DNA of 64,000 nt, taken from Massilia sp. Leaf139. Its GTDB lineage: Bacteria; Pseudomonadota; Gammaproteobacteria; Burkholderiales; Burkholderiaceae_D. The stretch spans positions 791 to 64,790 of the forward strand of contig NZ_LMOJ01000003.1 of NCBI RefSeq assembly GCF_001424165.1, given 5' to 3'. The notes under the pieces were generated by a model that worked only from the letters and a program-made list of their open reading frames with translations, ran no database searches and was not told the DNA's origin. Positions 50,245-64,000 of this stretch are shown here, piece by piece (position 1 is the first letter of the stretch; each line of letters opens with the position of its first letter). Position numbers and translations under genes: made by a program.

Positions 50245-50817
50245 ATGGCCACGATCGGAGCAGCAGTCAGCGCGCAGATGAAGAACCAGTTCTACGAGGA
50301 GGCGCGGGCGCGCTCCTGGACGCCTTCGAGCCTGGCCGGGCACGTGCTCGCAGAATTCCTCGCGGGGAGGCTGCGGATCGACGAGCCGCCGGCGAAGGCC
50401 CCGAGGTCGAGCCTGATCCTGGCGCCTCCGCCTCCGCTCGAAACACGCACCGAGCAGGTGATCATCCGTCTCCAGCCATACCACTACGGGGAATTGTCCC
50501 GGCTGGCAGAGGAGCGCCGGTGGTTCCCTGGCACCTACCTCGCGAGTCTGACGGCCGCCCACATTGAAGCGCGTCCCGTAATGTGTGCGGCCGAGATAAA
50601 TGCACTACGCCAGGTTGCGCGCCAGCTCGCGGACTTGGGTCGCAACTTTAACCAGATCGCCCGCTCGCTCAACAGCTCACCCAAGGAGGCGCACAAGGCC
50701 ATGGGCATGGAGATCGACCTGGTGCGAATGCTGGTCGATCTTGAAACCAATGCGGTGAAGGAGCTGATTGGTGCAAACGTCCGCGGATGGGGAATCGCGG
50801 TGGACTCAAGCGATTGA
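50245..50817 (+). CDS. mobC: MobC-like relaxosome accessory protein
   Basis: 190 aa. The N-terminal part is ribbon-helix-helix-like, and around residues 115-150 lies the MobC signature EINALRQVARQLADLGRNFN-QIARSLN. Such proteins bind oriT, open the DNA at nic and help the relaxase. It is followed after 36 nt by the relaxase gene. Confidence 0.82.
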   Translation: MATIGAAVSAQMKNQFYEEARARSWTPSSLAGHVLAEFLAGRLRIDEPPAKAPRSSLILAPPPPLETRTEQVIIRLQPYHYGELSRLAEERRWFPGTYLASLTAAHIEARPVMCAAEINALRQVARQLADLGRNFNQIARSLNSSPKEAHKAMGMEIDLVRMLVDLETNAVKELIGANVRGWGIAVDSSD

Positions 50818-50853
50818 CAACCAGAAGACGCGGCCCTAAGGGAGGATGCCGGC

Positions 50854-51954
50854 ATGGACAACGATGAAATACTGGAACACGACCAGCCCGGCCGGAAGTC
50901 GGGAATCCGGCGCCTGGTGTACCGGCCGCCCCCGGACGTACCGGATGGACGCAAGCGCCGCCAGGGCGGCAAAGCGCGCTGGCGGGACGATCGTAGCTGG
51001 CCGGAGATCAAGAAACAGCTTCAGCGAACCCTGCGCCGTGCGCCTGAGGTCGTCATCATCGTCAGCGGCAGCCGCCGCGGCCACGCTGACGACCGGGCCG
51101 CGATCAAGGGCGTGTTGCGCTACATGCTCTACATATCCCGCAACGGCCGCCTGCTGACGGTGGACGAGCACGGCGCTCCCATCGATGGCCGTGATGCGAT
51201 CCGGGAGACTCACGCGCGCTGGGATCTCGACATGCAGCGGCTATGTAGCGCCCGCGGCGAACCCTTGCACCCTTCGTTCAACATCCTCTTTTCGATGCCG
51301 GCTAAAACTGCGCCGGACAAAGTGTTCGACGCGGTGCAGGCATTCGCGCGCGAGCACTTCCAGAAGCATGAGTATGTGATGGCCTTGCACACCCCGGAGA
51401 CGGATCCAGGCAACAAAGTGCCTGAACACCCGCACGTTCACGTCATCGTTCGGGCTGAGGACAAGGACGGCAAGCGCCTGTATATCCGCAAGAGCACGCT
51501 GCGCGCCTGGCGCGAACGGTTCGCCGCGGAACTGCGTGCGCGCGGGATCGACGCCAACGCGACGCCGCGCGCCGAACGCGGCATCTCGCTAAAAGCACAC
51601 GGCGCCGCGGAGTGGCGCATCGACAAGCGCAGCGAGGACGAGCAGCGCTCCGGCAAGGAGGGCAGGGCGATCAGCAGGGCCAAGCTCGCGCGCTTCATGG
51701 AGGCGGCTAAGGAGCTTCATGAAGGTTCCCCCGGGCCCAAGCCGTGGGAGCTGGCCATGGCGGCGCGTCGCCGCGATGAGCTGCGCAAGCTCGCGCAAAG
51801 CGCCGCCGCGTTGCGGCGGGAAGGCGACGCCGAGCTGGCCGAACAGGTTGAGCGCTTTATGCAGGACATGCCGCCACTGGATACCGAACGGCGCCAGATG
51901 CAGCGCGCACTCGCCGAGCGAGTAAGAAACCGCATGCAGGAACGAGGCCTGTGA
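50854..51954 (+). CDS. VirD2-like (MOBP) relaxase
   Basis: 366 aa. It nicks oriT, stays bound to the 5' end through a tyrosine and pilots the strand through the VirB channel. The order of motifs follows VirD2: LRYMLYISRNG (VirD2 L-E-Y-L-S-R-K-G) with probable nucleophile Tyr93, NILFSMPAKTAP, then VMALHTPETDP and EHPHVHVIVRAED with the metal-binding His192, His194 and His196, and finally ATPRAERGISLK, which mirrors the VirD2 A-T-S-R-A-E-R-G-I. The C-terminal 100 residues are a charged helical tail that may be the secretion signal region. Confidence 0.93.
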   Translation: MDNDEILEHDQPGRKSGIRRLVYRPPPDVPDGRKRRQGGKARWRDDRSWPEIKKQLQRTLRRAPEVVIIVSGSRRGHADDRAAIKGVLRYMLYISRNGRLLTVDEHGAPIDGRDAIRETHARWDLDMQRLCSARGEPLHPSFNILFSMPAKTAPDKVFDAVQAFAREHFQKHEYVMALHTPETDPGNKVPEHPHVHVIVRAEDKDGKRLYIRKSTLRAWRERFAAELRARGIDANATPRAERGISLKAHGAAEWRIDKRSEDEQRSGKEGRAISRAKLARFMEAAKELHEGSPGPKPWELAMAARRRDELRKLAQSAAALRREGDAELAEQVERFMQDMPPLDTERRQMQRALAERVRNRMQERGL

Positions 51955-55489: not shown

Positions 55490-56224
55490 CTAATCCGGGC
55501 CGAGAATTCCAAGCTTCCTGTCAGACTCGGCGCGCGCCTGAGCCTCCGCTAACCGCTGCTCCTCGGCTTCCGCTTCGGCGACAATCTCAGCATCGTCTTC
55601 TTCACTGGCCCGCTCCTTGTCGTTTTCCCAGCGACTTCTAGCGGTAAGTAGTTCAATCTTGTCGTGCAGTATTCCCCACGAATCGCCATCGCTATAAGCG
55701 TTCGCAATCACCGCCGCCAACATGTTCTGGACATGACCGAGCTGCGAATCTTTAGGTTCTAAATAGACATCAAGCTCGATGTTCTTTTCGGTAAGGGCAG
55801 CGTCGGTCAAATTACTGCTGCCAATAATTGCCCATTCGAGTTGACAATGTGGTGGTGCGCAGGACCACATGCTGTAAAACTTAGCGTGTAGCTTTGGGAC
55901 GAACACGACTTCCATCCGCTCTTCTAAGTTTCTCGAAAATTTAAGAAGATTCGCTGCTACCTCTGTACAATCCCTAATTTTCCTCGCGCGCTCATCAGCC
56001 TTGTCTGCCGGGTGTCGCTGATCACCTATGAATAGCCGGAAGGAACGCGAATCGCTTACTTTGAGCCAATCATCCACCGCAGCACCGAAACGATCAAACG
56101 TCGTTCCTGAAAGATATTTTGCGAAGCCGACCCCTACGTCGAATCGCTCCCCACAGTTGGTTCCGAGCGCTAGTACGATTTCCTCGAGCAGCGTTGCTCC
56201 ATAGTACGGGTTAATTATCTGCAT
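55490..56224 (-). CDS. Phospholipase D-superfamily protein (single HKD motif)
   Basis: 244 aa. One HKD-type active site: KLHAKFYSMWS followed by WAIIGSSNLTDAALTEKNIE, in the arrangement H-x-K...G-S-x-N of PLD-family nucleases that work as dimers. The N-terminus (LLEEIVLALGTNCGERFDVG) fits the usual start. The C-terminal 50 residues are an acidic helix (EEDDAEIVAEAEAEEQRLAE). Relatives include type II restriction enzymes of the BfiI/NgoFVII sort and nuclease effectors of defence systems. No partner lies next to it. AT content differs from the plasmid core, suggesting it was acquired. Confidence 0.78.
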   Translation of the reverse strand: MQIINPYYGATLLEEIVLALGTNCGERFDVGVGFAKYLSGTTFDRFGAAVDDWLKVSDSRSFRLFIGDQRHPADKADERARKIRDCTEVAANLLKFSRNLEERMEVVFVPKLHAKFYSMWSCAPPHCQLEWAIIGSSNLTDAALTEKNIELDVYLEPKDSQLGHVQNMLAAVIANAYSDGDSWGILHDKIELLTARSRWENDKERASEEDDAEIVAEAEAEEQRLAEAQARAESDRKLGILGPD

Positions 56225-58176: not shown

Positions 58177-58950
58177 CTACGGCCGCCTGGTACCGGCGAC
58201 GCGGTGCATCGCCACATGCAGTTCATTAATGAAGGCATCAAGCTCCCGAACCTTGCTCGGATCGCGTACGTCGCTGGCGGCCTGGAGACGCGCGAATGCC
58301 TTAGAGACGCGCTTGTTGTTGCTCACCAGGCCGTCGACCTGGGCGATCGTCTTCAAGTGCTCACGGCACAGATGGCGTCCCTGATCCGTCAAGCCGTGGT
58401 AGAGGGCGACGACCGTATCGTTGGTTTCGATCCTGACATAGCGGATGTGGGTGTCGTAGACGTGCAGGCGGGGATGGAAGTAATCGTCGATCACCTTGGG
58501 GTAATGTCTTGCGGTGTGGGGCAAATCGCACCAGTTAGCGTCCGACTTCTTCTGGTTACAGTCCCTGCAACACACGACCAGGTTTCGATACTGCATCGAA
58601 AATTGCGGATAGTCCTTGCGCGACAAGACATGTTCCACCGGACGCGCGTGCGCGACGTTTTGCAGCCAGCGGCGGCAATAGCAACAGCGGCCCTTCTGCA
58701 GCCCCACCAGGTGCAAGCGTAGAGCGGCAATGACTTCCTTGCCGAATTCGCGTGGTTTTTCACCTTTGAAGCTCTTCTTGTAATCGGTCAAGGCGAACCA
58801 ACGATCCAGGCGGCTGGTCTCGGCGCAAGCCTGCTCGGCTAGCCACAATGTCTTCGCTTCGGCCCACAGCCGCTTCGTCTTGTGCGGCTGCGACAGGAAA
58901 CGCTGCTGATCCCCGTCGATCTCGGCCCCGGGCCGGTGCATCAGCTTCAT
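58177..58950 (-). CDS. HNH endonuclease, PtuB-like partner of the fused ATPase
   Basis: 257 aa. The core is a zinc-supported HNH: GRCCYCRRWL with Cys89/Cys92, the catalytic PVEHVLSRKDYP with His107, then MQYRNLVVCCRDCNQKKSD with Asn123 and Cys128/Cys131. The N-terminal 70 residues are helical; the C-terminal 110 residues are unassigned. In Septu defence systems an HNH protein (PtuB) forms a complex with an ATPase (PtuA) and cuts nucleic acid on phage infection. Here the gene overlaps the preceding ATPase gene as ATGA, as expected for a fixed pair. No other gene follows it in this direction. Confidence 0.88.
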   Translation of the reverse strand: MKLMHRPGAEIDGDQQRFLSQPHKTKRLWAEAKTLWLAEQACAETSRLDRWFALTDYKKSFKGEKPREFGKEVIAALRLHLVGLQKGRCCYCRRWLQNVAHARPVEHVLSRKDYPQFSMQYRNLVVCCRDCNQKKSDANWCDLPHTARHYPKVIDDYFHPRLHVYDTHIRYVRIETNDTVVALYHGLTDQGRHLCREHLKTIAQVDGLVSNNKRVSKAFARLQAASDVRDPSKVRELDAFINELHVAMHRVAGTRRP

Positions 58951-61900
58951 TCATCCTCCTCCCCGGAATCTTCCACGGCGAGCGCGGCCATTTCCCTGAC
59001 AGCTGACTTGGCTTGCTCGATCAGGTTTACGTCAAAGCTCATTTCTTCGCGCGCCAAGAAGCGGCGTTGATGATCGATGACTTGTTTCATGTCGTCGAGC
59101 TTGTCCAGGATGGGCTGGGCACTTTGGCGTGGGTCATCGTCGCCATTCGCCTCCTCGATAAATTGCGCTACCAGGGCGGCGCAGCGCTCGTGAACCTCGC
59201 GGTTATTGCTGGTGTAGGTTCGGAATCCTTCGAACAGCGCCGTTTCGACGGAATTCCTGTCCTGGCGTGGGAGCGCGTTGAGTGCCCGGTCGCGGACTGT
59301 GAAACAGTGGTCGCCATCGCCGTCCGCACCGGCAACGAGAACGGGTGAATGCGTCGCCACCAGGACATCGGCCCCGAACTCCCGGGCTACCGTCTCGAAC
59401 AGTTTGGGCACGATGCGCTGCCACCCGACGTGCAAGCTGATTTCCGGCTCGTCGACCAGGAATAGCACATTACGCTTGGCTTCTGAGATCATCTTTGCCG
59501 CTAGCATGATGATCTGGTGTTCGCCCGAACTCAATTCATCGAAAGGCAGGATAGTGTCGCGGTGGTGTGCGCGCCGCAGGCCGAGCTTGTATTTCTTTGC
59601 CAGCAGGGGGGACGCTTGCAGCGTGTCTATTAATTGGCGGTCGCTGGCATCCTGGGATGCAAGCCGCACGATGCCGCTGATCAAGCCACGCTGCTGCCCA
59701 CCATTTGCCTTCAATTCCCGCGGAATCATGAACAATTCGGAGGCGAAGCCGACCAGGTCAAGTACGCGGTGCAAGACCTCCAGCATCTGCGGATCCGCGT
59801 GGATCCGGAGCATCAGCGCGCCAATGTCGACTGCAGCTTGCAGGGTATTGATACCGGTGGTATTGGTGCGTGCGCCCATGTAGCGATAGAACGCTTGCGC
59901 CTCGGGCGCCAGCTTCCGGAGAAAACGGTCGCTGGCATTGAAGGCGATGACCACCGTGGGCCGCCGCCGGGAAGCGCTTTCGACAGCGATATCGCGCAGC
60001 AGTAGGCTTTTGCCTTCGCCGTTGTTGCCAATGATGTAGATCCGCTGTCCGACTCCGTGTGCCGTCTCCAGCAAGGCGTCCAGCTGGCGTCGGTCAATCC
60101 CGCGTTCCCAGAGGTCACCGGCCACGGGCGTCAGATACGGTTTCGCCGCCAGGATGGCGTCCCGCTCGTGTATCGCCTCATAGGACACCGAGCGCGACAG
60201 GCCGGGCGCTTCGTAGGCGGTGTGATCGAATTCGCGCTTAAAAATGTTGGCCAGCAGCGGTTCGGCGTGTTCGAGGCGTTCCAACAACCGATTACGGTGT
60301 CCATCGGCCTGGAAAAGGGGCGCGATTAGGGCGCCCATGAAATCGGCGCTCAGCTGGACATCGCGGGCGGGCGTGAGGCGGCCGAGTGGTTCAGCGTCGA
60401 TGAACAGCACCTTACGCCTGTGAGCAGGCACGACGGCACGCCGCCCCGTGATCAGCCATGCCGAAAATCTTCGCCGTCCCGTCAAGGCGCTAGCGGGCAG
60501 GTCGACAACGGCGGCTACCATCTCGGCGGCCAGGAGTTCCTCACGCACATGCCTTTGCCAATGCGTTGTCGTGCAGGCCAGGTGCGGGACGACGACCAGC
60601 GCCAGGCCAAAGCGATCCCGCAGCCTGGGCAGTTGCTGTGCGAGGCGAATGGCCGACATGGCGAGTTCGGCATTGTTGCCCGGTGGTTGCGCAGGGGTCG
60701 TGCTGCCGCTCGCTGGAGTGGGATCCAGAAGCAGGAAGTCCGCGAAAATCGGCAGCGCGGGGTCATCCGATCCTACTCCCTTCAGGTCGACGTAATGGAA
60801 ATAGATTCCTTGCATGCAAAGGCGCATGGCCGTGAAACGATCGGTCACGGCCTGGGAAATGATGCACTCCGGCCGTGCCATGCCTGCGGCAATAGCCAGC
60901 CGCGGCAAGCAAGCGGTCGGACTGCCGAGATCCGCGACGGTGGCATCCGGCTCGATGGTGCAACTGAGGGCCAAGTATGCGGCGAAGTCCTCGCGGCCGA
61001 CATCGCGCTGGTTGCCGATGCGCTCGCGCTGGCCATGGTCGAAGGCGTCTAGGACGCGCTGCATGCCGTGCTCGCGGGCCCAATTCACAACCAAGTCGAA
61101 TTGTCGTCGTGGCCAGTCGGCTTGCACATTAAATATATGCTGCTGAGGCCCTACGTAGCCGAACGATCGCAACGCGTCCATGACAGCGTCGAAAACGAGA
61201 GCAATCCTCTCCGGGTAGGGCCGATCGGTCGCCCCCTCGAGCCAATGCATTATGTAGGGCTGCCCCATTATTTGTGCGGACAATTGATCAGATGGTTGCC
61301 CGGTGATTGCGACACTGAGCCGATCCGCAGTGCGAGCGTGATGGGCGCCTTGTGCCGACACCAGAAAAAGCAGAAGCAGCCCGTGCTCATACGTCTCGGT
61401 GGGCTGCGCGGACGACGGAGCGACTTTGAACAAGTCTTCCCAGAGCCTCGTGATCACGATGGTGCTCTCGCGATAATCTTCCATGCTGCGTTCGCTCATC
61501 AAAGAATGTTGCTGGATTTTATCATCTGATGAGCGCACGATTTGCTTCATCGGAGTGTCGAAAAGAAAACAGTGCCAGCTGCCGCGATGTCCCCGGAATT
61601 CCTTCGCTAGTTTGCTGCTCAAGGAGGCATCAAACAGTTTTTCCGAAAAGTGATTAAATCTAATTCTGAAAGCTGAAAAGCGGCTTGGATCATTACCTCG
61701 GTGCATTACCATTAAATGATAATTGCTATTATCACTCAAGCGTTTTTGCTTAGTCTCGATCATCAGTCTTCTAAGCTGAGGGTCGCTGGTTCGACCCAGC
61801 TGGGCAGGCCAAAAAGCCCGTTTAAAATCAATGTCTTGGCTATTCCAAAACAGTCGGCATAATTTACTATTTTCTTCAAGTAAGCGATAAGTAATCGAAA

Positions 61901-61970
61901 TTAACGTTTTGCATCCCTGCAGTAAGACGAGTAGCCGTTCTTCGTTTGTTCCACAGCTTTTACCGCTCAC
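58947..61970 (-). CDS. Fusion of degenerate N6-adenine methylase-like domain and PtuA-like ATPase
   Basis: 1,007 aa. Residues 1-300 are unassigned. About 315-535 follow the HsdM/type I methylase fold: a helix leading to TVADLGSPTACLPRLAIAAG where active enzymes have D-P-A-C-G-S-G-G, then FADFLLLDPTPA in place of the N-P-P-F motif, then LALVVVPHLACTTTHW and LLAAEMVAAVVDLPASALTG, the usual I-V-L-P...I-G-L-P-x-x-x-F region. Both catalytic motifs are lost, so methylation is unlikely. Residues 640-880 are an ABC/OLD-type ATPase: Walker A GNNGEGKS (648-655), signature LSSGEHQ (813-819), Walker B VLFLVDEPE (835-843), H-loop THSP (873-876). PtuA has this ATPase but, as far as I know, not the methylase-like domain. 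It may sense DNA or its methylation and trigger the HNH partner. The first 160 codons are AT-rich compared with the rest. Confidence 0.88.
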   Translation of the reverse strand: MSGKSCGTNEERLLVLLQGCKTLISITYRLLEENSKLCRLFWNSQDIDFKRAFWPAQLGRTSDPQLRRLMIETKQKRLSDNSNYHLMVMHRGNDPSRFSAFRIRFNHFSEKLFDASLSSKLAKEFRGHRGSWHCFLFDTPMKQIVRSSDDKIQQHSLMSERSMEDYRESTIVITRLWEDLFKVAPSSAQPTETYEHGLLLLFLVSAQGAHHARTADRLSVAITGQPSDQLSAQIMGQPYIMHWLEGATDRPYPERIALVFDAVMDALRSFGYVGPQQHIFNVQADWPRRQFDLVVNWAREHGMQRVLDAFDHGQRERIGNQRDVGREDFAAYLALSCTIEPDATVADLGSPTACLPRLAIAAGMARPECIISQAVTDRFTAMRLCMQGIYFHYVDLKGVGSDDPALPIFADFLLLDPTPASGSTTPAQPPGNNAELAMSAIRLAQQLPRLRDRFGLALVVVPHLACTTTHWQRHVREELLAAEMVAAVVDLPASALTGRRRFSAWLITGRRAVVPAHRRKVLFIDAEPLGRLTPARDVQLSADFMGALIAPLFQADGHRNRLLERLEHAEPLLANIFKREFDHTAYEAPGLSRSVSYEAIHERDAILAAKPYLTPVAGDLWERGIDRRQLDALLETAHGVGQRIYIIGNNGEGKSLLLRDIAVESASRRRPTVVIAFNASDRFLRKLAPEAQAFYRYMGARTNTTGINTLQAAVDIGALMLRIHADPQMLEVLHRVLDLVGFASELFMIPRELKANGGQQRGLISGIVRLASQDASDRQLIDTLQASPLLAKKYKLGLRRAHHRDTILPFDELSSGEHQIIMLAAKMISEAKRNVLFLVDEPEISLHVGWQRIVPKLFETVAREFGADVLVATHSPVLVAGADGDGDHCFTVRDRALNALPRQDRNSVETALFEGFRTYTSNNREVHERCAALVAQFIEEANGDDDPRQSAQPILDKLDDMKQVIDHQRRFLAREEMSFDVNLIEQAKSAVREMAALAVEDSGEEDE
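61794..61813. repeat. 20-bp direct repeat, copy 1 (second at 63178-63197)
   Basis: ACCCAGCTGGGCAGGCCAAA occurs here, inside the start of the fusion gene, and again identically at 63178-63197, just after the HEPN-like gene. The two frame that gene and the divergent promoter region. Confidence 0.6.
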
Positions 61971-62045
61971 TAATCATGGTCGCTGACTCGGAGTGATTGT
62001 CGGTAAAGTATGTTATGCTCAGAGGAACTTTTGACCGAGGGAACG

Positions 62046-63086
62046 ATGGTTTTGTTTCAACTTCCATATCGAACGATCTTCATTCATGGTCTCGACTCGC
62101 CAAACTTGAGCGGAGCCTCTCGTTTCGATTTCCGATTGATAGTCAAACTCGGGCCTGAAGAGTTTTTTGGCGATGCACCGTTGACCGGACGACTGAGAAT
62201 TTTTCCTCCGCACTCTGCTTTTCAGGTCGCGGGAACCTTCTTTGGCGGCATTGGCCGAACGAAAGCGGTTGAAGGTACGCGCCTGGAGAAATTCAAATAC
62301 GTTCGCAATGTCGGCTGGGCCATCTTATCAGTCGACGGAAGTCTTGCGACTATCGACTTCGCAGTAAGTAAATTGGATCATGCTGGGGGCATCGTTCAGC
62401 GAGTTGTCGAGTTTCTTCCGGCATCGTTTGCTGCTGCGTCAACTTGCGCCGTTACAATCTTGTCAATAGAAGGTATGGTCAACGGAGTGCCTCTCGACGT
62501 GCGGTTCGAGGGCAATGCACCTGGTGGCGAATCTTTTTCGGTGAACGAGATCAATCCGGCAGTCGCAGAGTATTTTGATGCAGTAATGCCACTTCTGACC
62601 AGTCTGCCAAGGAAGATCGTTGCCGCTCACCGATACCTTGCGCAAAGCTTTCTGCTTGAGGCTGGGTCACAGTTTTCGTACGACTACACAGGTGAGCGCG
62701 TGCTGAACCTGTGCAAGGCGCTTGAGGCTCTGGTGCCGGATAGTATTGTGGGCGATATTGACTCGATCCGCGAATTCTTGAAGGGGTGGGGCCTTAGCCA
62801 TCTTGAAACTGAAGTTTTCGCAAGCCTAAAGTATTTGCGAAGCCAGCTCGATAGCGCGCACATTGCCATCTCGCCAATTCCAGATAGTGCGCACCGCGCG
62901 GTTGCTCGATTCATCGGAATCGCTGAGAAAGCAGTGCAAGCATTGCTGCTTACTGCTGTAAAAAAGTACACTTCGGACAATTCGCTCTATCCCGAGAGAC
63001 GCTTGCAAACAAACGAGCCAACTGCCGTTAAGCACTTGGCGAAGTATGACAATCTCATAATTCCGAGGGATTGGGCGAAAACGTGA
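62046..63086 (+). CDS. HEPN-like protein divergent from the ATPase-HNH unit
   Basis: 346 aa from ATG at 62046 with GAGGGAACG upstream; an ATG at 62010 would add 12. The N-terminal 170 residues are beta-rich (LPYRTIFIHGLDSPN, RLRIFPPHSAFQVAG). The C-terminal half is helical and ends in a HEPN-like bundle: ERVLNLCKALEALVPDSIVG, LKYLRSQLDSAHIAI with an R-x6-H motif (Arg265...His272), and VARFIGIAEKAVQALLLTAV. HEPN domains with Rx4-6H are often ribonucleases in toxin and phage-defence systems. The layout, a beta-rich sensor-like front and a HEPN end, is like ApeA-type proteins, but I cannot assign a family. Its start lies about 75 bp from that of the divergent fusion gene. Confidence 0.7.
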   Translation: MVLFQLPYRTIFIHGLDSPNLSGASRFDFRLIVKLGPEEFFGDAPLTGRLRIFPPHSAFQVAGTFFGGIGRTKAVEGTRLEKFKYVRNVGWAILSVDGSLATIDFAVSKLDHAGGIVQRVVEFLPASFAAASTCAVTILSIEGMVNGVPLDVRFEGNAPGGESFSVNEINPAVAEYFDAVMPLLTSLPRKIVAAHRYLAQSFLLEAGSQFSYDYTGERVLNLCKALEALVPDSIVGDIDSIREFLKGWGLSHLETEVFASLKYLRSQLDSAHIAISPIPDSAHRAVARFIGIAEKAVQALLLTAVKKYTSDNSLYPERRLQTNEPTAVKHLAKYDNLIIPRDWAKT

Positions 63087-63671
63087 TGTTTTTTTAAAAA
63101 AAATTTAGCCCAGTGATCACCTGAACTGATCAATACGACTAGGTAGCACCGGACGAAAGTTGCAACTAAGCGGCTTAACCCAGCTGGGCAGGCCAAATAC
63201 CGCGGGCCGAAGTCGCCCACCGCTATAGGATTGCGTATGCCATGCGCGACGTTGTTCGGCGCGAATCGGGATCGATACGCAGGCCGACCTGTGCCTGTCG
63301 TCGATACGGGCCATTCGGCTACTGGTATTTTACGGGCCCCGGAAAGGCTCGCGGAAGAAGAGACGGGCACGCGGATGGTATGGGTCATTCGTGGGCGCCA
63401 GAGCGCCAAGTTGTTGGGAGGCGGCGACGCCGGTGGTCTTCCGGCTCGTGGCAAACTTAGCTCCCGATTGAAGGCCGTAGTGCCCGATCACGTACTGCAC
63501 TACTTTCTCGCTTCAGCGCGGCCGTCCCACCTTCTTACGGCGACATCGTGCGAAATCGTGTTGTCGAGGGCACGATCACCGCCAAGACGCGGGGCGCATC
63601 TGCTCCGCGATATCTTGACAACGATCAGGAGTTGAAAATGAAAGGGATTCAGTCACGAATCGTTTGTGCTT
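63087..63671. other. Intergenic stretch with the second 20-bp repeat
   Basis: Frames at 63231-63635 (plus) and 63117-63454 (minus) are open but do not look like proteins. An A/T-run follows the HEPN-like gene (63087-63106) and could serve as a weak terminator. Copy 2 of the 20-bp repeat is at 63178-63197. Confidence 0.4.
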
Positions 63672-64000
63672 TTACGCGAGCGCATGCGCATCGCAGTATG
63701 AGCTGATCATCTCCGTAGCGAGGCGAGAGTCGTCAATGTCAAGGGTAAGCATTTCGTCTCTCTCAAGCTCGATGCCAAGGGCTCGGCTGACGATATCCCG
63801 GTCACATGTGTACGCGCCGGAAAGAACCATTAATTTTTCCTTCCACAGGACGTCTCGCGCGCCCCCATTGCTTCGAACGCGCCGCAAAGGATCCTTTTGG
63901 TTTGCCACGCTGCAGATCACATGGCGCGGAATGGCTCTTCCTTTGACCTTCCGGAGCAGGTGAAGCACACGGTTCGTACCGCCTGCAATTGTCTTGATCT
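63672..64000 (-). CDS. C-terminal part of a hypothetical protein (cut by right edge)
   Basis: The frame is open from the right edge to the stop at 63672, about 109 codons; a GTG at 63968 is unlikely to be the true start because coding character continues upstream (IKTIAGGTNRVLHLLRK). The visible part includes VKGRAIPRHVICSVANQKDP, DVLWKEKLMVLSGAYTCDRD and LGIELERDEMLTLDIDDSRL. I do not recognise the family. It may belong to the same defence-type island. Confidence 0.55.
   Translation of the reverse strand, partial: IKTIAGGTNRVLHLLRKVKGRAIPRHVICSVANQKDPLRRVRSNGGARDVLWKEKLMVLSGAYTCDRDIVSRALGIELERDEMLTLDIDDSRLATEMISSYCDAHALA

Follow-up and report, generated by a model that had tools for sequence, protein, structure and literature searches.

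The 64,000-nucleotide stretch of Massilia sp. Leaf139 analysed here (the window; contig NZ_LMOJ01000003.1, positions 791 to 64,790) carries on its minus strand a two-gene unit in which a type I methylase subunit (HsdM), judged catalytically dead from its motifs, is fused to an ATP-binding cassette (ABC) ATPase of the PtuA type and is followed by an HNH nuclease gene of the PtuB type. A large open reading frame (ORF) at 58947-61970 and the HNH ORF, overlapping by ATGA, were both confirmed where an earlier note made from the sequence (the original prediction) had placed them (Table 1). The methylase-derived part (pseudo-HsdM) likely serves as a sensor. Tentatively, the whole may be regarded as a Septu-type (PtuAB) anti-phage unit with the dead HsdM as a built-in sensor or bait for anti-restriction proteins. 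A dead HsdM on a Septu ATPase connects two branches of bacterial immunity. To our knowledge, little is understood so far of what triggers Septu systems, and a recognizable dead copy of a phage target on such an ATPase makes anti-restriction proteins a concrete candidate.

The N-terminal part was compared with type I methylases at the level of sequence, profile and predicted structure. Most sequences of the class sample that matched the region around residues 315-553 of the long ORF came from HsdM-like ORFs, ~500-630 amino acids (aa) in length. Pfam support is weak when taken alone, as N6_Mtase reaches 12.6 bits in the window protein against a cut-off of 20.4; the same model matches 8 of the 12 family members with a best E-value of 3.5e-6. 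The profile of the 12-member family matched solved HsdM structures (3khk at 1.3e-7, EcoR124II at 3.5e-5) and aligned collinearly over residues 143-463 with a profile built from five HsdMs (probability 98.5 and E 2.5e-15 in hhalign), whereas the HNH alignment, used as a negative control, reached a probability of 0.1 against the same HsdM profile. An AlphaFold model of the domain, built from a 10-sequence alignment, had a predicted local distance difference test score (pLDDT) of 71.3 and a predicted template modelling score of 0.78. In Foldseek the first 17 rows for this model were all type I methylase subunits (best E 5.8e-11), and VIA-align gave Z 21.2 with 3khk over residues 7-457 (373 aligned, 3.7 Å), followed by ten more type I methylase structures at Z 17 or more. 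By these profile and AlphaFold comparisons the N-terminal part is predicted to be a whole HsdM fold, and the methyltransferase fold expected by the original prediction at residues 315-535 of the long ORF extends beyond that region to the helical N-domain. The dead HsdM region comprises this helical N-domain, a Rossmann core and part of the C-terminal segment; the last ~40 HsdM residues lie outside the hhalign alignment.

The residues standing in place of the S-adenosylmethionine (SAM) and catalytic motifs read DLGSPTA and LDPTPA, as originally reported. Neither the SAM motif pattern nor, at the position of motif IV, [NDS]PP[YFWH] occurs in any of the 12 members; the only match of the latter pattern is SPPY at residue 4 of L065, outside the domain core. 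Both motifs are kept in all five control HsdMs, and 42 HsdM-like ORFs from the searches (five controls included, the window copy and L050 excluded, a few loci without a profile match dropped) retain motif IV in 41 cases and motif I, by pattern, in 36. Remnants can still be recognized: T/S-G or T-A stands at the S/T-G position of HsdM in 11 of 11 full-length members, N/D with P one or two places on is found in 8 of these 11, and the stretches R-x-x-L-x-L-H-G-I and AVIDLP persist, their HsdM equivalence being taken from the hhalign alignment. By its motifs, the methylase domain is catalytically dead, and their loss in 12 of 12 members, together with the profile and structure matches to HsdM, agrees with the earlier view of a domain that lost catalysis and kept its fold.

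The length of 1,007 aa given earlier for the fusion protein depends on an upstream GTG at 61970. While an ORF of that length is present, the real start is probably residue 158 (window 61499), which yields a protein of ~850 aa from a gene at 58947-61499; an alternative start codon is M163 in the numbering of the long ORF (61484). The G+C content at third codon positions (GC3) is 0.36-0.52 in codons 1-150 of the long ORF versus 0.58-0.84 in the blocks from 151 to 1000, and the codon score is ~0 over codons 1-157 and 0.13-0.27 thereafter, a comparison that is not clean, as the score was trained on the HNH gene together with those later codons and reaches 0.11 when codons 101-157 are taken by themselves. 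Inside the codons upstream of M158 lies a 3' fragment of tRNA-Arg(TCT) (window 61758-61815, plus strand; 58 bases, 93% to the tRNA copy of the genome). Copies L033, L063, L064, L066-L069 and L072 start within a few residues of the M158 region, and the mechanical ORFs of L065, L070 and L071 extend further upstream. The start at M158 is preferred because of the low GC3, the near-zero codon score, the tRNA fragment and the starts of most relatives.

Pfam assigns AAA_21 and AAA_15 to the ATPase part, which in PADLOC matches PtuA1 (5.9e-31); the HNH protein encoded directly downstream matches PtuB1 (1.3e-21). All 11 full-length members retain Walker A, LS[ST]GE, Walker B and the H-loop ATH[SA]P, and CxYC, [ED]H and NL...C..CN occur in each of the 11 HNH proteins examined, of which two (L031, L032) come from unfused systems. 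With these profile matches and intact motifs, the description of a Septu-like pair holds. The six best Protein Data Bank (PDB) matches of the ATPase model in Foldseek were PtuA chains of the retron Eco7/Ec78 and Ec83 complexes; in VIA-align PtuA came fifth, behind other ABC ATPases whose Z values tied with its own to within ~1, and a PDB sequence search ranked AriA above PtuA. The PtuA label is thus owed mainly to the PADLOC matches and the HNH partner and less to the fold.

The same architecture is found in at least five genera. The relatives counted are those among the matches listed, so that their number is a lower bound. At least 11 other copies, one of them decayed, occur in Paraburkholderia, Pseudomonas, Aeromonas, a Zoogloea metagenome-assembled genome (MAG) and genome G862. 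The scan of genome_contigs contributed at least nine full-length relatives (L064-L072: two Paraburkholderia, one Zoogloea MAG, four Pseudomonas, two Aeromonas); L073 and L074, short ATPase matches only in that scan, were excluded from all counts. A family-level search added one more intact pair, that of G862, with the fusion present in 2 of 145 genomes of the family. The HNH gene lies directly downstream in all nine full-length copies whose DNA reaches that far, the contigs of L066 and L067 ending before the HNH position. In the decayed copy of Paraburkholderia caribensis MBA4 (L033 4779-6220), the pseudo-HsdM ORF stops short of the ATPase, of which a short remnant runs into an unrelated reading frame; the decayed copy shares 61.5% identity with that of Zoogloea, is part of the 12-member alignments and does not count among the full-length members.

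Within the order sample (399 genomes, two candidates scored per genome), a match covering the two parts together was seen in no other genome. In the class (369 genomes) and phylum (398) samples, which overlap with each other and with the order sample, Walker A in the same frame was absent from the 12 and 19 loci inspected, respectively, the phylum inspection covering 19 of the 45 other matching genomes. In a tree of 30 ATPase rows the 11 fused members fall on one side of a branch with support 93/96, and nearest to this branch is the unfused PtuA of Acetobacter vaccinii (L031), around which no pseudo-HsdM match was present in 13 kb. Single-protein pattern scans of genome_contigs and viral_contigs (six peptide patterns each) gave no match, and scans of viral_contigs with close subgroup alignments, weak in that they used two peptide patterns each, gave no relative. 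In PLSDB, tblastn with N-terminal queries recovered only the decayed P. caribensis copy, or nothing. Among phages, the full protein matched nine records, each only within ATPase residues 781-933.

The pseudo-HsdM is the least conserved part of the unit. In each of 55 pairs of full-length members it shows lower identity than the ATPase, and in 36 of 36 lower identity than the HNH protein, with mean identities of 21% for pseudo-HsdM, 38% for the ATPase and 40% for HNH (pairs that are not independent). The clearest case is offered by Aeromonas diversa and A. taiwanensis (L068 and L069), whose loci have only a 3.3-kb cassette in common: pseudo-HsdM is 82% identical in aa, the ATPase 100% and HNH 99.6%, the nucleotide identity stepping from 77-92% to 96-100% near codon 370, and the ratio of nonsynonymous to synonymous substitution rates (dN/dS) of the pseudo-HsdM is ~0.34. 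This sensor-like pattern is consistent with an effector that stays constant and a specificity part that is exchanged or evolves fast, and the two copies, with one effector and two putative sensor domains, form a natural comparison. In addition, the mean net charge of pseudo-HsdMs is less negative than that of HsdM-like ORFs (-5.8 vs -12.2, p 0.009), a weak pointer to an acidic ligand.

HsdS matters for what such a domain could recognize. The neighbouring ORFs that were scanned contained neither HsdS nor HsdR, and the single HsdS match of the window's genome is on another contig. An HsdS match was present in 7 of 11 carrier genomes versus 9 of 14 control genomes, so that an association with HsdS is not seen and a dependence on HsdS in trans was rejected. 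Because four of the 11 carriers (completeness known for two of 11) have no HsdS match, HsdS seems dispensable.

How the unit could work is best set out as a sequence of conditional steps. In the resting state, pseudo-HsdM and the ABC ATPase would keep the HNH subunit inactive. A phage protein targeting type I methylases, such as the DNA mimics Ocr or ArdA or the peptide Stp, would bind the pseudo-HsdM, which would have kept the shape bound by anti-restriction proteins and given up methylation. Binding would change the state of the ATPase and free or activate the HNH nuclease, which would then cut a nucleic acid that the cell needs (tRNA or nicked DNA, the targets of known PtuAB) and halt the infected cell. 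PtuAB effectors need not cut DNA: two that have been characterized, those of retron Eco7 and Septu EcB88, act on tRNA-Tyr, which they deplete or cleave, and abort infection (excerpts of PMC11555353 and PMC13096335). That the ligand is a phage anti-restriction protein is perhaps the case, by analogy with systems described in the available text of PMC12409349: PrrC, kept bound to the restriction enzyme EcoprrI, is activated by phage Stp, Ocr is the trigger of PARIS, and Ronin is proposed to sense anti-restriction proteins via modification subunits. Slightly more doubtful still is the complete proposal of a self-contained anti-anti-restriction unit, in which a dead-HsdM bait on PtuA would fire the Septu nuclease and the bait would be swapped between strains on a constant effector.

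Several points weigh against this interpretation. The ligand is suggested by analogy. The Aeromonas step reflects exchange or divergence of a domain and is silent on what the domain senses, and relaxed constraint on a dead domain could also give fast evolution, though dN/dS is ~0.34 in that pair. The charge difference would fit DNA binding too and comes from related sequences that are not independent. Confidence in the fold model is moderate (pLDDT 71), and the template modelling scores of the ATPase to PtuA are low (0.24-0.33 of the query in the first six Foldseek rows). The HNH protein falls below the NCBIfam cut-offs (PtuB 49.3 of 150 bits, TIGR02646 37.1 of 52.15 bits), models that are named for retron systems and do not define Septu as a whole. 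Finally, no HNH match was found in 12 kb of the decayed P. caribensis copy.

HsdM requires HsdS for target recognition. The original prediction held that the methylase-like domain could read DNA sequence or methylation state, and a sensor of this type would bind DNA, hemi- or unmethylated sites or replication intermediates and license the HNH nuclease at such places, in the manner of a restriction enzyme whose methylase is dead. Although the helical N-terminal domain and core of HsdM are retained and an inactive Dam-like domain in DndH was proposed to block DNA sites (excerpt of PMC10853773), we consider this reading unlikely: neither HsdS nor another target-recognition part was found beside the pair in the ORFs scanned, 4 of 11 carriers lack an HsdS match, and the alignment ends ~40 residues short of the HsdM C-terminus, leaving its tail unaligned. 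The anatomy is accounted for no less well by a bait for anti-restriction proteins.

Alternatively, the dead HsdM could merely shape oligomers or lock the ATPase, with the trigger being the usual one of Septu. The conserved parts are indeed the ATPase and HNH, and unfused PtuA proteins occur (L031, L032). Such an add-on is, in our view, rather improbable, as the domain is entire in 11 full-length members and, in Aeromonas, differs between copies that agree fully or almost fully in the other parts of the unit, as would befit a specificity part. A docking in the manner of PrrC, by which pseudo-HsdM would replace normal HsdM in the cell's type I M2S or R2M2S complexes and guard them, could draw on the full HsdM fold, the precedent of EcoprrI guarded by PrrC (excerpt of PMC12409349) and the HsdS matches in 7 of 11 carriers; with HsdS not found in the other four, matches in 9 of 14 controls too and the C-terminal tail of HsdM unaligned, it has little chance of being right. 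Least credible is a chance or frozen fusion of an ordinary Septu with a functionless methylase relic, which would fit the rarity of the architecture (none other in the order sample or among the inspected loci of class and phylum) but not its occurrence in at least five genera, the single well-supported ATPase branch of 11 members (93/96) or the dN/dS of ~0.34 in one close pair.

In support of the bait reading, which we favour among these, several copies of the pair lie beside other defence genes. Beyond one gene, ~2.2 kb past the fusion start, a NaeI-type endonuclease, Vsr and a cytosine methylase follow in the window's genome, and further out a DruK-like nuclease and the Druantia type II genes DruE2, DruG and DruF. 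Elsewhere, an Old gene lies beside the copy of P. bryophila, an Olokun pair beside that of A. diversa and a PDC-M26A-like gene ~2 kb from that of P. kirstenboschensis. This neighbour scan covered ten ORFs at six loci, with four ORFs matched and defence genes at three loci; the flanks of L063, L066, L069, L070 and L071 lay outside it.

The gene between the fusion and the NaeI gene is divergent (62010-63086, plus strand) and encodes a 358-aa protein with no significant match in Pfam, PADLOC, NCBIfam or PHROGs. It is flanked by the tRNA-Arg(TCT) 3' fragment mentioned above and by a 20-base exact tRNA piece at 63178-63197. The intact tRNA-Arg(TCT) is on contig C22 near 398 kb, with a second 3' fragment 20 kb on and an HsdS match between them; the fragments resemble attachment-site (att-like) scars. 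A retron-like RNA upstream of the fusion was considered and rejected, as there was no Rfam match to E 1 and a 476-nucleotide fold with z -2.0 (3 of 100 shuffles as stable) is read as the tRNA remnant plus chance. On the other side of the pair, 55490-56224 (minus strand) encodes a phospholipase D (PLD)/NgoFVII-like nuclease that stays below Pfam cut-offs and matches PADLOC ZacB at 6.3e-10. A protein with weak MobC/NikA matches (50245-51954, plus strand) and a MobA/VirD2-type relaxase near the pair point to a mobilizable element.

Table 1 Features of the fusion-HNH unit and its surroundings (window coordinates unless given otherwise; residues of the ~850-aa protein unless given otherwise).
Feature	Position	Strand	Basis
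Pseudo-HsdM/PtuA-type ATPase fusion gene, ~850 aa from ATG 61499 (probable start)	58947..61499	-	GC3, codon score, tRNA fragment, homologue starts
HsdM region, predicted catalytically dead, residues 1-479 of 850	60063..61499	-	AlphaFold, VIA-align, hhalign
Degenerate SAM motif I, DLGSPTA, residues 190-196	60912..60932	-	
Degenerate catalytic motif IV, LDPTPA (NPPF in HsdM), residues 258-263	60711..60728	-	
Walker A, GNNGEGKS, residues 491-498	60006..60029	-	
ABC signature, LSSGE, residues 656-660	59520..59534	-	
Walker B, FLVDEPE, residues 680-686	59442..59462	-	
PtuB-type HNH nuclease gene, 257 aa	58177..58950	-	PADLOC PtuB1 1.3e-21
Intact HNH/zinc motif (CCYC, EH, NLVVCCRDCN), residues 89-132 of HNH protein	58555..58686	-	
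ATGA overlap of fusion gene and HNH gene	58947..58950	-	
Upstream part of the 1,007-aa ORF, probably non-coding	61500..61970	-	GC3, codon score, tRNA-Arg(TCT) 3' fragment
Defence genes running past the window end, NaeI-type endonuclease to DruF	window 63675-64000 + L095 1963-16914		

As the original prediction had supposed, no system with this architecture was found described in the open-licence literature searched, a scope that leaves most subscription papers outside. Septu type I and the retron-linked type II are named in the PADLOC paper (excerpt of PMC8565338). The window pair resembles Septu type I (PtuA and PtuB) in having an ABC ATPase matching PtuA1 followed by an HNH protein matching PtuB1, and differs from it by ~480 extra N-terminal residues on the ATPase, namely the dead HsdM, and by an HNH protein with 49 bits against a cut-off of 150 on the NCBI PtuB model. 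With Retron I-A (Ec78/Eco7, Septu type II) it shares an effector pair of the PtuAB type; in contrast, no reverse transcriptase was present among the flanking ORFs scanned and no Rfam match to E 1 in 55-64 kb. Dyads of an OLD-type ABC ATPase and an HNH protein adjacent to BREX, described as backup effectors, have the same pairing, although a dead methylase part is not mentioned in the available excerpt of that source (PMC12839542). The HsdM of type I restriction-modification has the same predicted fold over 373 residues (Z 21.2) and a collinear profile match, but here motifs I and IV are lost and an ATPase stands in place of the C-terminal tail. DndH likewise contains a dead methylase domain within a defence protein; its ATPase, however, is of the HerA/FtsK type and its methylase belongs to another family (excerpt of PMC10853773).

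PrrC-EcoprrI, PARIS (AriAB) and Ronin are comparable as toxic effectors linked to an ATPase or methylase with a known or proposed anti-restriction trigger (excerpt of PMC12409349), a trigger that is putative here. Unlike in these systems, methylase fold and ATPase are one protein in the window pair, the methylase appears dead and the effector is a PtuB-type HNH protein; compared with PARIS in particular, the partner is HNH and not the Toprim protein AriB. If the bait reading is true, PrrC, PARIS, Ronin and the pseudo-HsdM Septu would be separate solutions to one problem, with the sensor of the latter being a copy of the guarded protein itself. Plant immune receptors with integrated decoys offer a parallel to a sensor copied from the protein it guards.

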